A stretch of 26,116 nucleotides of DNA from a virus, in IMG/VR virus record IMGVR_UViG_3300042888_000081, positions 1 through 26,116 of that record; one strand, 5' to 3'. The position numbers and the translations under genes are program-made. Every line of letters begins with the position of its first letter. Position 1 is the first letter of the stretch. Positions 1,159-18,830 of the stretch are shown here, one piece after another. A model generated the notes under the pieces. That model saw only the letters and a list, made by a program, of their open reading frames with translations, did no database searches and was not told the DNA's origin.

Positions 1159-1488
1159 ATGCGTGTGAGAATACAAGGTGTGATTTACGACACACTCGAA
1201 ACAGCAGCGACGGCGTTTAACGTCACTGAGCAGACCATCCGCCGTGCGCTGTGCGAAGATAGAGAAGCTCGCCTCAAAGTCAGACCTGCTGACTGCAAAA
1301 GGGGAAGGCCGCAGCCGTTTACTATTGAGGGGATCACATGGCCGAACCAAAAAGCTGCCAATACGGCCTTGGGTCTGCCGTTCAACTGCATCACACAAGC
1401 CGTGAATAGAAACAGCGCGGTGTCATTGGCAAAAGTTGCAGCAGCGGCCCGCGCTTACAAGAAAAAAATAAACTTGGAGGAAAAGTAA
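1159..1488 (+). CDS. Small protein with two NUMOD1-like HTH repeats (paralogue A)
   Basis: A 109-aa protein. I chose the ATG at 1159 over the in-frame GTG at 1147 because GGAAG lies 5 nt upstream and because the resulting MRVRIQGVIYDT matches the start of the neighbouring paralogue (MRVRVRGTIYQS). It contains two copies of a roughly 45-residue unit: GVIYDTLETAATAFNVTEQT near the N-terminus and GITWPNQKAANTALGLPFNC in the second half. The pattern of a short beta turn (G-x-x-Y/W), then an A-A-x-A-L/F-G helix, then a second helix, resembles the NUMOD1 DNA-binding module usually attached to HNH or GIY-YIG homing endonucleases. No nuclease domain is present. A DNA-binding accessory or regulatory role is inferred. 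The stop overlaps the next start by one base. Confidence 0.72.
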   Translation: MRVRIQGVIYDTLETAATAFNVTEQTIRRALCEDREARLKVRPADCKRGRPQPFTIEGITWPNQKAANTALGLPFNCITQAVNRNSAVSLAKVAAAARAYKKKINLEEK

Positions 1489-1796
1489 TGCGAGTAAGAG
1501 TCAGAGGCACGATCTATCAGTCAGTTACAGAGGTCGCAGAAGCCTTTGGGATGACCCGCGAAGGCGTCTACGGGGCAATTTACAGGAACAAGACTGACTT
1601 GCTTGGCTTGGGCAAGACTAGCCCAAAGAAGACAGTCATAGGCGGCGTCGAGTTTAGGTCCATCAGCGCAGCAAGTAAGGCACTAGGATTTGACCGCCGC
1701 TTCTTGCAAGATGTGAACAGAGACGGCGGACCACAAAGAAAAGCGCGACTCGAAGCCGCCATTGCGGCTTATCTTGAAAGGATGAAGCAGCCATGA
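1488..1796 (+). CDS. Small protein with two NUMOD1-like HTH repeats (paralogue B)
   Basis: A 102-aa protein whose ATG overlaps the TAA of the previous gene (TAATG), with GGAGG upstream. It is a clear paralogue of its neighbour, with the same opening and the same two-unit plan: GTIYQSVTEVAEAFGMTREG in the first half and GVEFRSISAASKALGFDRRF in the second. The tail is a basic and alanine-rich helix ending in YLERMKQP. Sequence divergence between the two copies is high outside the motif positions, so the duplication is probably old or the two have different DNA targets. There are no catalytic motifs. Binding DNA through the helix-turn-helix units is inferred from the NUMOD1-like pattern; what it regulates is unknown. 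Confidence 0.72.
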   Translation: MRVRVRGTIYQSVTEVAEAFGMTREGVYGAIYRNKTDLLGLGKTSPKKTVIGGVEFRSISAASKALGFDRRFLQDVNRDGGPQRKARLEAAIAAYLERMKQP

Positions 1797-4456: not shown

Positions 4457-6247
4457 ATGGATAAGTCAGGTCAATACAAACTTGTGACCACGCACGAACA
4501 AGTGCAGCAAGTCATCAAAGAAATCACAGACTCAGGTGCAGTCCACGCGCTGGACTTCGAGACTACAGGGCTGCGGCCCGACAGCAGCAAGGTGCGTCTG
4601 ACTTGCATCAGCGGCCCCGCTGGCAACTACGTCATCGACCACTTGCTGTGCAAGCCGTTCACCTACTACGCCAATCTGCTGGCTGACGCCTGTCCGTGGG
4701 CAGTGTTCAACGCTGGCTTCGAGGGGCGCTGGTTCGACTTCGCCACTGACGGGCCGGACGTTGTGCTGTTCGATGTCGGCGTCATGTCCAAGGCGAAGCT
4801 GGGCGGTCGCCCGTTGTCGCTGGCCGACATGGTGCGGCGCGATCTGGGCAAGACACGCGACAACAAGCACCTTCAGGTGTCTGACTGGTCGCAGCGGGAA
4901 TTGTCGCTGGAGCAGTATGACTACGGCTTTGAGGATGCAGAGGACACCTACAACCTCTACACGATGTGGGCGGCTGCGCTGACGGCGGAGCAGATGGCGG
5001 GCTTCTACGTCCTGAATGACGCATGGCGCGGCACGGCGGAGATGGAAGACACAGGCATGACCATCGACGAGGAGCATCACAGCCGCCTTATCAATATGTG
5101 GTCAGTGCGGCGCGTGGTCGCTGAGAAGGTGCTGCGCCGCTACACGCCGCCAGAAATTATTGAGAACCTACGCTCAAAAAAGCAAATCTCTGACTTCCTG
5201 AAGACTGTCATGGACGAGACAAGTCTGCGGTCGTGGCCGAAAACAGACAAGTCAGAGCAACTCCAGACTGACCGCAAGCAATTGCGTCAGGCGTCCTTTC
5301 GTTCACCCTACCCGTTCTCGCGCTGGCTGGCGGCGATGATCGTGTTCAACCGCGCAGACAAGTATCTAGGCACTTACGGCGAGACGCTGCTGACAAAGCA
5401 GCGGCTGGCTGGCCGTGTCTACGGGCGCTTCAATATCGCTCAAGCCGTCACTGGCCGCTACTCGTCGTCCAGCCCCAACCTTCAGAACATCCCGCGCAAT
5501 CCGCTGGTGCGGCGATCCTTCATCGCCCCGCCCGACACAGAGATGGTGCTGGCCGACTACAGCGGCATCGAACTGCGCGTCTTGGCGGAAGTAAGCAACG
5601 ACAAGCAGCTAAAGCAAGATGTGATCTTTGGGGACGTTCACGCCGAATCGGCCATCACACTGTTCAAGGTCGATCCCGCTGAGTTTAAGGCCCGCCTGAA
5701 GGCCAAAGACCCCCGCGCTAAGGAGATGCGCTCAAAGGCCAAGGCATTCAGCTTCCAGCTTACCTACGGCGCGGGCAACGCTGCTCTGGCTATGGTCCTG
5801 CGCTGCTCTGACGGCGAGGCGGCGGAATACGTCGACAAGTGGGCGGCGCGGTATCCCTACGCCTACGCGCTGCGCTTCCAGATGTTCGATCAGATGAACG
5901 CCACAGGGCTGCTGCCGATCAAGTCTGGCCGCACAGTCTACGTTCACAAGAACGAGCGGTCGCTGCCCGTGGCATCGAACTACCCAATCCAAGGCGCTGC
6001 CGCTGATGTGATGTATCGCGCAGTCACGCGCATGAGTTTCAAAGTCTACGAACTGCCATTCAAGGCGCGGATGCTAGCGTCGATCCACGACGAATTGCTG
6101 ATGTTGGCGGAGACAGGGCGCGGCGAGGAACTGCGGGAAATCATGGTCGAGGAGATGAGACAGGCTTGGCTGGACATTTTCCCCAATGCTGAAACGGCAA
6201 ACCTATCGGAGAGCGCAGTCGGCCAATCTTGGGCGGCGAAGCCCTAA
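4457..6247 (+). CDS. DNA polymerase, family A (with 3'-5' exonuclease domain)
   Basis: A 596-aa replicative polymerase. The N-terminal proofreading domain has Exo I (ALDFETTGL; D33, E35), Exo II (VFNAGFEGRWFD; N85) and an Exo III region (YGFEDAEDTYN) around residue 160. The polymerase domain shows TGRYSSSSPNLQNIP, motif A (LADYSGIELR, D367), motif B (KAFSFQLTYG, K429 to Y437) and motif C (SIHDELL, H544-D545-E546). There is no 5'-3' exonuclease domain, and the length is in the usual range for podovirus polymerases of the T7 or HMO-2011 kind. AAGGAGG lies about ten bases before the ATG. It is the central gene of the early module and would work with the primase-helicase and the presumed ssDNA-binding protein. 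Confidence 0.97.
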   Translation: MDKSGQYKLVTTHEQVQQVIKEITDSGAVHALDFETTGLRPDSSKVRLTCISGPAGNYVIDHLLCKPFTYYANLLADACPWAVFNAGFEGRWFDFATDGPDVVLFDVGVMSKAKLGGRPLSLADMVRRDLGKTRDNKHLQVSDWSQRELSLEQYDYGFEDAEDTYNLYTMWAAALTAEQMAGFYVLNDAWRGTAEMEDTGMTIDEEHHSRLINMWSVRRVVAEKVLRRYTPPEIIENLRSKKQISDFLKTVMDETSLRSWPKTDKSEQLQTDRKQLRQASFRSPYPFSRWLAAMIVFNRADKYLGTYGETLLTKQRLAGRVYGRFNIAQAVTGRYSSSSPNLQNIPRNPLVRRSFIAPPDTEMVLADYSGIELRVLAEVSNDKQLKQDVIFGDVHAESAITLFKVDPAEFKARLKAKDPRAKEMRSKAKAFSFQLTYGAGNAALAMVLRCSDGEAAEYVDKWAARYPYAYALRFQMFDQMNATGLLPIKSGRTVYVHKNERSLPVASNYPIQGAAADVMYRAVTRMSFKVYELPFKARMLASIHDELLMLAETGRGEELREIMVEEMRQAWLDIFPNAETANLSESAVGQSWAAKP

Positions 6248-6261
6248 ACACTACATCTTGT

Positions 6262-6297
6262 AGCCACTAGGGGTTGACCCCCCCATATTGTGTGGCT
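6262..6297 (+). repeat. Nested inverted repeats in the leader of the resolvase gene
   Basis: In the 104-nt gap after the polymerase, AGCCAC (6262-6267) pairs with GTGGCT (6292-6297), and inside it GGGGT (6270-6274) pairs with ACCCC (6277-6281) across two bases. The inner element looks like a small dyad operator and the whole could fold as a branched hairpin. No convincing promoter was found next to it. The gap ends in a strong AAGGAGGG ribosome-binding site for the gene at 6352. Confidence 0.4.
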
Positions 6298-6351
6298 TCA
6301 CAGATGACTACAAAAAGATCAGTATCACAGTTCTGCTAAGGAGGGACCACC

Positions 6352-6876
6352 ATGTTCACTATCGGAGTTGACCCCGGATCGCCGCTGACTATCGGCGTTC
6401 TGTTGGAAGGCAAACCATACAAATGCTACAGCGGCGAAGAAGTCGCTGTGCAGATCGTCAAGGCTGGGCGCAAGAGCGCCTCTTGGATCAACCAAGCCGC
6501 CTTGATTACCACGATCCTGCGGATGCTCAAGGCGCTGGCGGCTGAACACAATTACCAGCCAATGGTCATCATTGAGCGCGTCACGATCCGCCCTAACGAG
6601 AGCCTGAGTGCTGGCGTCCCGTTTGTTGGGTCGATGTTCTTGACGGAAGGCATCTGCGCTGGGCTAAAGCTGCCCTACAAGCTAGTGCCGCCGTCAGTCT
6701 GGAAGCCAGCGATGAAGATCGCCGTCACGCTCCAGAATCCCAAAGAGCCAGCGCGGCTTCGTGCCATCGAAACATGGCCGGACGATGCTGGCTACTTTGC
6801 CCGTAAACTTGACCACAACCGCGCTGAGTCGCTGCTGATGGCAAAATACTGGGAAGACATTGGGTCAACCAAATGA
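6352..6876 (+). CDS. RuvC-like Holliday junction resolvase
   Basis: A 174-aa RNase H-fold nuclease of the RuvC type, expected to cut branched DNA made during phage replication and recombination before packaging. Motifs: beta-strand 1 with IGVDPG (D7), a strand carrying VIIERV (E75), and the C-terminal helix LDHNRAESLLMAKYW (D154, H155, E159), giving the four-residue acidic metal site. Length matches the family. A strong AAGGAGGG precedes the start. The stop overlaps the next start by four bases (ATGA), so it is coupled to the primase-helicase. Confidence 0.87.
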   Translation: MFTIGVDPGSPLTIGVLLEGKPYKCYSGEEVAVQIVKAGRKSASWINQAALITTILRMLKALAAEHNYQPMVIIERVTIRPNESLSAGVPFVGSMFLTEGICAGLKLPYKLVPPSVWKPAMKIAVTLQNPKEPARLRAIETWPDDAGYFARKLDHNRAESLLMAKYWEDIGSTK

Positions 6877-17708: not shown

Positions 17709-18830
17709 CTAGGATAGACTTGCGGTATAGCGCATGACCTCGCCGCGCTCACGATGCACAGTGATACATTTCATCGTGCTGCGGCCCGTGTAACCAAAGC
17801 CAGCGGCAGCGGCGTCTCTTGTCGTTATAGCCCTGTGGCTCTCCCACGACATCCCACCAATGTCTTTGCTGCTGTCTTGGTGGATGTGGCCGGAATCTAG
17901 ATACCGCCAGTATGTACGCCCCCAAATCGGGGCGTGAACATCGGCCACCTGTTGCACCAGCCGCTCTGGCTTGGTCTTGTCGCCGTGATGCGCGGCCAGC
18001 ATATTGCGGCCAAATTCCCAGACCCAGAGTTTGGCGGGATTGAAGTGAATAGTCACGCGCTCATCCATTTCGTAGCGCATGACCAAAGCGATTGCGAGCA
18101 TATGGGTAAAGTCAGGATCGTGGTTTCCGGCCAGCACAACAACGTCGATGTTTTTGTGCTTGGCTTTGGCTGCTTCGATCATGGAAACGTGCGCCCTGAC
18201 TGCGGCCATTGCAGCTTGGGCAAACCGCCCATCGACATCAAGGATATGGCCTGATGTTGGGGTCATGTTTTTGGAGTCGTTTTGATGGAGGGTGTCGCCC
18301 AAATTGAGGATGATCGCCCTATCGGTGTAAGGAGCAGCGTGGATGAGGGCGGAAGATGCCTCTAGGAGCCGTTGTGCGGCGATTGCGATGCTATACTCCG
18401 CACCCGTCTCGTCCTTCCACGCCTTCATACCGAAATGCACATCAGCGATCAGATAGCGAGGCAGTAGATCGTGCGCCACATTGTCGGGCATAGGCGCTGG
18501 TAGAGGGGCAGGGACAGAGCCAAGGGCTTCTTTAAACAAGTCAGCCCACGGAGTCAGATCATCTTCTGCGCGCTCTGATTTCCAGAAAACGCTGTCCCAC
18601 GATCCAGTTTCCTTGTTTTGGACGCGCCGCCAGCCGTGCTTGCCCGTATCGGTCGATAGGCCAGTGTTTTCAAGCGCAGATACAACGCCCTCGTCGGCGT
18701 TGAGCCACGCCTCTGCCGCAGCGTAAGCGCGGCGCACATAGTGCTTGTCGATCTGCAACTCGTTGGCCGCAGCAGTCTTGCTGCCGAGACGTTTGACGAC
18801 ATCGTAGATTTCACGTTGGCGGGGGGTCAT
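17709..18830 (-). CDS. Calcineurin-like metallophosphoesterase with N-terminal HTH (373 aa)
   Basis: Residues about 1-45 form a helix-turn-helix (RQREIYDVVKRLGSKTAAAN, ELQIDKHYVRRAY) like those on DNA-binding phage proteins. From residue 125 the five blocks of a two-metal phosphoesterase follow: ADVHFG (D130, H132), LGDTLH (D179), AGNHD (N236, H237), AAHHGDKTK (H281/H282) and SGHIHQ (H315, H317). The family includes Mre11/SbcD nucleases and various nucleotidases; the attached DNA-binding domain favours a nucleic acid substrate. The ATG overlaps the o-spanin stop by four bases, so it is expressed late with the lysis genes, which is an odd place for a DNA enzyme. The substrate is unknown. Confidence 0.87.
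   Translation of the reverse strand: MTPRQREIYDVVKRLGSKTAAANELQIDKHYVRRAYAAAEAWLNADEGVVSALENTGLSTDTGKHGWRRVQNKETGSWDSVFWKSERAEDDLTPWADLFKEALGSVPAPLPAPMPDNVAHDLLPRYLIADVHFGMKAWKDETGAEYSIAIAAQRLLEASSALIHAAPYTDRAIILNLGDTLHQNDSKNMTPTSGHILDVDGRFAQAAMAAVRAHVSMIEAAKAKHKNIDVVVLAGNHDPDFTHMLAIALVMRYEMDERVTIHFNPAKLWVWEFGRNMLAAHHGDKTKPERLVQQVADVHAPIWGRTYWRYLDSGHIHQDSSKDIGGMSWESHRAITTRDAAAAGFGYTGRSTMKCITVHRERGEVMRYTASLS

Follow-up and report, generated by a model that had tools for sequence, protein, structure and literature searches.

The window studied here, the whole 26,116-nucleotide stretch of viral DNA that was analysed (positions 1 to 26,116 of IMG/VR record IMGVR_UViG_3300042888_000081), carries near its left end two adjacent small genes, NM1 and NM2, which each encode two copies of a unit resembling NUMOD1. 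According to the available text of two papers, homing endonucleases are the usual carriers of this module (PMC1564403, PMC3943268), and the question raised by the locus is what such units do in two phage proteins that stand apart from any nuclease. The initial annotation had placed the ORFs of the two genes at 1159-1796, where they are indeed found, with the following neighbours.

3-1076, + strand: SNF2-type helicase, C-terminal part, cut by the window edge (PF00271 7e-9, PF00176 4e-7, phrog_62)
1079-1156, + strand: micro-ORF of 25 aa (MREIIYEAVGLAALVYAGYLIELWK), read from the sequence, directly upstream of NM1
1159-1488, + strand: NM1, ORF of 109 aa with two NUMOD1-like units, residues ~2-38 and ~53-89
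1488-1796, + strand: NM2, ORF of 102 aa, paralogue of NM1, with two NUMOD1-like units, residues ~2-38 and ~48-84
1793-2008 and 1905-2045, + strand: two small conserved ORFs, with no Pfam match at E<=0.01
2176-2475, + strand: DUF6378 gene (PF19905 1.5e-22), the downstream neighbour, which heads the replication series

NM1 has a conserved KRGRP linker and a C-terminal helix, while NM2 has a TxPKK linker and a C-terminal helix formed by residues 82-100. The units are spaced by ~46 residues in NM2 and by 51 in NM1, and the pI values of the two proteins are 10.0 and 10.4. An in-frame GTG at 1147 is a possible alternative start for NM1; the orthologue alignments begin at the ATG. The NM1 and NM2 frames share 1 nt (TAATG) and NM2 shares 4 nt with the next ORF, and thus the three genes are probably translationally coupled. 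When the four units were compared pairwise as 35-residue segments, all six pairs scored above shuffled sequences, with p values (5e-5 to 1.7e-3) that are flattered by a register chosen by eye. Both these tests and the AlphaFold models described below agree with two module copies per protein, as initially annotated.

To which family the units belong is answered more clearly by the orthologues than by the window itself. In Pfam, NM2 of the window matches I-TevI_DNA-bd (E 3.4e-4), NUMOD1 (E 9.4e-4) and I-HmuI_NUMOD-like (E 1.7e-3), all below cut-off; with NUMOD1 (PF07453) it scores 19.8 bits and NM1 14.1 bits (E 0.058), the cut-off being 22.8. NM2 of contig L013 exceeds the cut-offs of the same three families (29.7, 28.6 and 31.0 bits, respectively), and that of NUMOD1 is also passed by NM2 of L009, L011 and L012 and by NM1 of L048; it is missed by NM2 of L022, L025 and L048 and by NM1 of L012 and L013. 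At E<=1, I-HmuI_NUMOD-like is matched by all 11 NM2 orthologues, Sigma70_r4_2 by 10 and NUMOD1 by eight, and among six NM1 sequences DUF7552 is matched by six, HTH_DeoR by five (L012 above its cut-off) and NUMOD1 by four. These scores place some orthologues firmly in the family and the window's own copies weakly, and it is in this form that the annotated NUMOD1-like module holds. Since many orthologues match general HTH families too, HTH is a safer label than NUMOD1. NCBIfam gave weak generic HTH matches for NM2 and nothing for NM1, PHROGs weak matches alone for either, and PDB sequence profiles no useful match. At the genome level, the NUMOD1 profile run over ten records gave no match above cut-off, and weak matches appeared in 11 of 14 control genomes; given this noise, the family claim is carried by the protein-level scores of the orthologues. 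A match of the profile at 18729-18782 of record G000 is an HTH within another protein, of 373 aa, and was left out of the count.

Structure prediction against NUMOD1/HTH folds had been named as a check. The AlphaFold models predict a hairpin followed by two helices twice in each protein, that is, the hairpin-then-HTH fold of the NUMOD1 / I-TevI type. They were computed from inputs of 13 and 14 sequences, with a mean pLDDT of 83.7 for NM2 and 77.8 for NM1; the pTM values are 0.49 and 0.44, respectively, and the relative placing of the two units in the models is therefore not reliable. Unit 1 of NM2 aligns with 8b6e (Z 5.7, 32% identity, 40 residues), with I-TevI bound to DNA (1i3j, Z 5.2) and with I-HmuI (1u3e, Z 4.0), and unit 1 of NM1 with 1i3j (Z 4.9, rmsd 1.4, 37 residues) and 8b6e (Z 4.9). 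Z values below 6 over ~40 residues are weak evidence alone, and with values this modest the case rests on the agreement of sequence with fold. In the models the second units resemble general HTH folds only: taken together with the C-terminal helix, unit 2 aligns in NM2 with MuB (2mqk, Z 4.7), Cro, SinR and proteins like them, and in NM1 with MerR-like folds (Z up to 2.8). A Foldseek search of the PDB gave no significant match, the best having E 0.58 and MerR-type regulators coming top. A comparison with predicted viral structures put three uncharacterised phage proteins of 102-116 residues closest (34-42% identity, E 4e-10 to 9e-9); a protein named Nuclease-associated modular DNA-binding 1 is also near, and named homing endonucleases first appear at rank 10.

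Could the pair then be what is left of a homing endonuclease after decay of its nuclease part, retained as inert decoys that bind DNA, as had been suggested? The usual company of the module speaks for such an origin, as do HNH-type genes that occur separately in some NM-bearing records: HNH_3 exceeds its cut-off in one of 14 (G004, where it lies ~4.3 kb from NM2), with a weak match in G015, and HNH does so in one of 14 (G012, at a distance of ~16.6 kb), with weak matches in G015 and G001. In G015, an HNH-like frame of 88 residues (L048:6332-6598, minus strand; HNH 0.038 and Ntox28 0.0044, both sub-cut-off) overlaps the 3' end of NM2 from the opposite strand. Moreover, a sister phage that lacks NM genes carries a free-standing HNH_3 + AP2-like endonuclease gene in the same interval between the helicase and DUF6378 genes (L028:3472-4050; AP2 sub-cut-off). 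However, none of the matches in NM-bearing records falls within an NM protein, and GIY-YIG was found in none of these 14 records, many of which are fragments. NM1 and NM2 themselves have no GIY-YIG or HNH match in Pfam at E<=10, in keeping with the annotated stand-alone module of four units over two proteins. Furthermore, two units run from the Met onward in all 11 NM2 and 7 NM1 aligned sequences. The dN/dS ratio is 0.18-0.21 for NM1 and 0.07-0.40 for NM2 (listed pairs with dS<1) and reaches at most 0.51 over all listed pairs, the listing being restricted to pairs with pS 0.02-0.72 and the remaining pairs dropped; such values, well below 1, indicate that both proteins are maintained by purifying selection. 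Group I introns are covered by Rfam, and a scan of the window at E<=1 gave no match; the NM genes sit in a series of overlapping genes. A decayed homing endonuclease is thus disfavoured by selection, by the two-unit architecture starting at the Met and by the absence of GIY-YIG from the 14 records, and we regard it as very unlikely.

The history of the pair was addressed with a phylogeny of the units, another check that had been proposed. In a tree of 47 units over 44 columns, with many unresolved forks, each of the four unit sets requires a single change (support 99/98 and 96/90 for the first and second units of NM1, 83/83 and 54/94 for those of NM2), 15 rows belonging to no set being left uncounted. 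First units group closer to first and second to second, and although this deep fork is weak (46/20), the simplest reading of the tree would be a tandem duplication of one two-unit gene. The duplication is probably older than the overlapping arrangement, since both genes also occur ~1 kb apart, in other gene orders, in two contigs (L012/L049 and L048). NM2 alone was found in 7 of the 14 NM-bearing contigs (L008, L009, L022-L025 and L042), and some of these phages can therefore do without NM1. The leader that elsewhere precedes NM1 runs straight into NM2 in L023, as might result from a deletion joining the two similar gene starts; alternatively, NM1 may have been inserted in the other phages. 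Faster divergence of the second units was considered and dropped, being present in NM2 (units 1 and 2 averaging 64% and 56% identity, respectively, 11 rows) and absent in NM1 (73% and 74%, 7 rows). Scans of bacterial genome contigs, and of plasmids with NM2 of L012, gave no relative; they were pattern-seeded, and distant relatives may escape them.

The two genes lie next to replication genes. After DUF6378 come, on the + strand and in this order, a RecE/Cas4-like exonuclease, a phrog_9528 protein, a family-A DNA polymerase, a Holliday-junction resolvase and a Prim-Pol/AAA protein, and because of these replication genes the left part of the window is presumably an early region. The 25-aa product of the micro-ORF is hydrophobic and possibly membrane-spanning, and a similar stretch sits before NM1 in L007, L011 and L013 and before NM2 in L023. 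The DNA polymerase ORF of a sister phage (L034:8291-10906) has 871 aa against the usual ~600 and probably carries an intein (Intein_splicing 2.1e-7, 31.3 bits, cut-off 35.8).

What occupies the interval between the helicase and DUF6378 genes when the pair is missing? In all five NM-less sister loci where it is readable (L028, L029, L034, L036 and L040), the last gene before DUF6378 is an unrelated HTH gene, whose product in L028 matches HTH_28 and HTH_8 below cut-off. Over 18 records, this gene was found in seven of seven without NM genes (one find being partial, at a contig end), in none of ten with them, and together with an NM-like gene in MW202675 (L002), where the two adjoin (6001-6360 for the NM-like gene, 6314-6577 for the HTH gene) and neither is annotated. 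As two small ORFs separate NM2 from DUF6378 in the NM phages, the interval is shared and the exact place differs. The alternation could mean that a small DNA-binding protein is favoured in this interval, but it is confounded by phylogeny, the contigs being related, the events few and some records fragments.

Small phage genes of patchy distribution often act against the host or its defences. The NM genes are both small and patchily distributed, and their products could, for example, occlude or mimic a DNA site of the host. Occurrence in unrelated phages of one host family, however, fits an anti-host role and a regulator alike, and we hold the former to be improbable.

The position of the pair also bears on whether NM1 and NM2 serve replication, as accessory or origin-binding proteins, instead of regulating transcription. 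Replication genes are neighbours not only here: among relatives in other phages, Pyei1 p22 adjoins a DnaA-like initiator gene, R4C_045 sits between primase genes, and Psul1_p21, which comes after CI/Cro genes, is annotated as a putative replication protein. The accessible part of PMC6536676 presents a replication role for Psul1_p21 as a hypothesis of its authors. An inverted repeat with 10-bp arms, GACAAACACA...TGTGTTTGTC, lies at 2509-2589 between the DUF6378 and exonuclease genes, and, with one mismatch allowed, each of the 14 contigs examined from the window's clade has it (12 bear NM genes and 2 are cut before the interval). Yet sister phages that share these replication genes have no NM genes, and the repeat tracks phylogeny: as a pair of arms it was found in none of nine other sister contigs examined, and it is absent from L048 and L049, which hold both NM genes. 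As a candidate operator it was, on account of this distribution, downgraded to a lead. A search for operators among 11-mers common to L049, L048 and the window's clade gave four hits, none convincing. A role in replication instead of transcription is possible though rather unlikely, and its probability makes up the second half of that of our preferred reading, given below, without adding to it.

Just upstream of the DUF6378 gene, at 2043-2163, we also observed a conserved element that looks like a structured RNA. Over 10 distinct sequences, its 26 pairs are paired in 97.7% of cells, with double-sided changes at three pairs, two of which lie in a 7-bp GC stem. In 500 shuffles, the 7 double-changed cells were never reached, three such pairs were reached by 54 and the number of pair types by 413. 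The Rfam scan of the window (E<=1) gave no match to this element.

The sites that the proteins read had been sought, as a speculation, in a dispersed hexamer. AGTCAG, with its complement CTGACT, is indeed abundant, with 88 copies in the window against 13.9 expected from a first-order Markov model (e.g. at 1278, 1499 and 1519), and its flanks show little conservation and a mild preference for A before the hexamer. Across 30 contigs, each represented by the stretch available and counted after exclusion of duplicate loci of the same contigs and of the named phage loci L001-L003 and L050-L054, it is enriched 4.1- to 12.5-fold in 28, among them 12 of the 14 that bear NM genes. However, enrichment of 4- to 7-fold is also seen in all 16 contigs without an NM hit; two of these (L021 and L027) begin beyond the interval and the other 14 include several fragments, and a search of the whole record for nine of the 16 gave no NM gene at E<=10. 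Conversely, the two exceptions, L049 (2 copies against 6.1 expected) and L048 (5 against 4.5), hold both NM1 and NM2 in other gene orders, and NM1 of the L049 contig, as read from L012 on that contig, keeps the helix AFNVTEQTIRR without change. Seven stretches, taken from six other phages in which NUMOD1-like proteins stand alone, have 0-3 copies each. By this double dissociation the hexamer and the genes are separable, which contradicts the proposal, and we find it scarcely credible that NM1 and NM2 read AGTCAG.

We consider it likely that NM1 and NM2 bind DNA with two heads each, have no enzymatic activity and belong to an early/replication operon, acting as transcription regulators or as replication accessory factors. 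Each head would consist of a beta-hairpin and helix-turn-helix and enter a major groove in the manner of the I-TevI C-terminal domain. The basic linkers (KRGRP in NM1 and TxPKK in NM2) would probably lie in the minor groove between half-sites. Tandem duplication of a two-unit ancestor would have given two proteins that bind different short sites. They might regulate transcription of the early operon, possibly their own, in the way the I-TevI domain represses its own promoter, or they might act as replication accessory factors, and one protein may serve both. The portion of PMC2988022 at hand reports that the I-TevI DNA-binding domain works independently as a repressor. A role in transcription is plausible, falling slightly short of an even chance. 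Direct support covers the two-unit architecture, the family via some orthologues, the resemblance in fold seen for the first units, purifying selection, the gene overlap and the position beside replication genes; DNA binding, groove geometry, early timing, a regulatory role and the preference for transcription over replication are what we infer. Among the three roles initially suggested, that of early regulators is thus the best supported, its DNA binding and timing belonging to the inferred part.

In this locus, the DNA-reading module of homing endonucleases is an ordinary, selected phage gene pair. Its natural variation, with two paralogues, 14 contigs and the genes both present and absent, makes a study of recognition feasible, and a stand-alone, repeatable hairpin-HTH unit would make a simple DNA-binding scaffold. 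More speculatively, Alphaproteobacterial phages might have domesticated the module repeatedly, as a modular family of repeats without a nuclease, with two or three units in each protein and duplicated genes, that provides exchangeable origin or operator readers with one short site per unit, a possibility that we advance tentatively.

Known systems offer several points of comparison. The NM units share a hairpin and HTH with NUMOD1 (PF07453), I-TevI_DNA-bd (PF20987) and I-HmuI_NUMOD-like (PF22083) of homing endonucleases; unlike NUMOD1-type enzymes, the NM proteins have no nuclease domain and carry two tandem units. MP1412_53, a GIY-YIG protein with a weak NUMOD3 match in Pfam, has, by our reading of its sequence, one such unit at the C-terminus. 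The unit is also found alone in 8b6e, a short chromatophore-targeted protein of Paulinella (sCTP-23166), the protein aligned above with the first units; it differs from the NM proteins in being eukaryotic, short, of one unit and imported into an organelle. As far as the available text of PMC12176269 goes, that family binds double-stranded DNA.

Relatives are found in phages. With NM2, tblastn retrieved Pyei1 (E 2e-5) and R4C (E 4e-4). Weak or short matches also occur in Streptococcus phages (E 0.1-0.4) and Enterococcus phages (E 6e-3, 33 residues), and in Pseudomonas phages (E 0.07-0.2) and a Burkholderia phage (E 1e-3) the matched proteins carry an endonuclease annotation. From tblastn and annotation together, phages of Paracoccus, Ruegeria, Dinoroseobacter and Rhodobacter encode proteins of two or three units that show no nuclease match, and the Rhodobacter phage relatives already carry the label helix-turn-helix DNA binding. 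The open-licence literature, as far as it was searched and accessible, yielded one proposal of a replication role for a phage NUMOD1 protein (PMC6536676) and no experiments on one that stands alone. In Pyei1_p22 (L001:3761-4339), a Cys/His-rich segment (HGTIRGYVTHGCRCDVC), which may bind zinc, precedes the two NUMOD1-like units.

The NM proteins resemble RcKickapoo_15, R4C_045, Tedan P67b_00014 / 00047, Psul1_p21 and Pyei1_p22 of Rhodobacteraceae phages, which likewise stand alone and have several units: two or three hairpin-HTH-like units each, no nuclease match at E<=0.01 and, for several of them, a place adjoining early or replication genes. Identity to the NM proteins is 31-38% over the matched parts where tblastn found them. 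Some differ in having three units or extra terminal parts, and their genes occur in the tblastn results singly or as a dispersed pair, whereas NM1 and NM2 form an overlapping tandem pair. With at least two units each, no nuclease and separate genes, NM1 and NM2 are a further example of a kind of phage protein that has already been annotated in Rhodobacteraceae phages.
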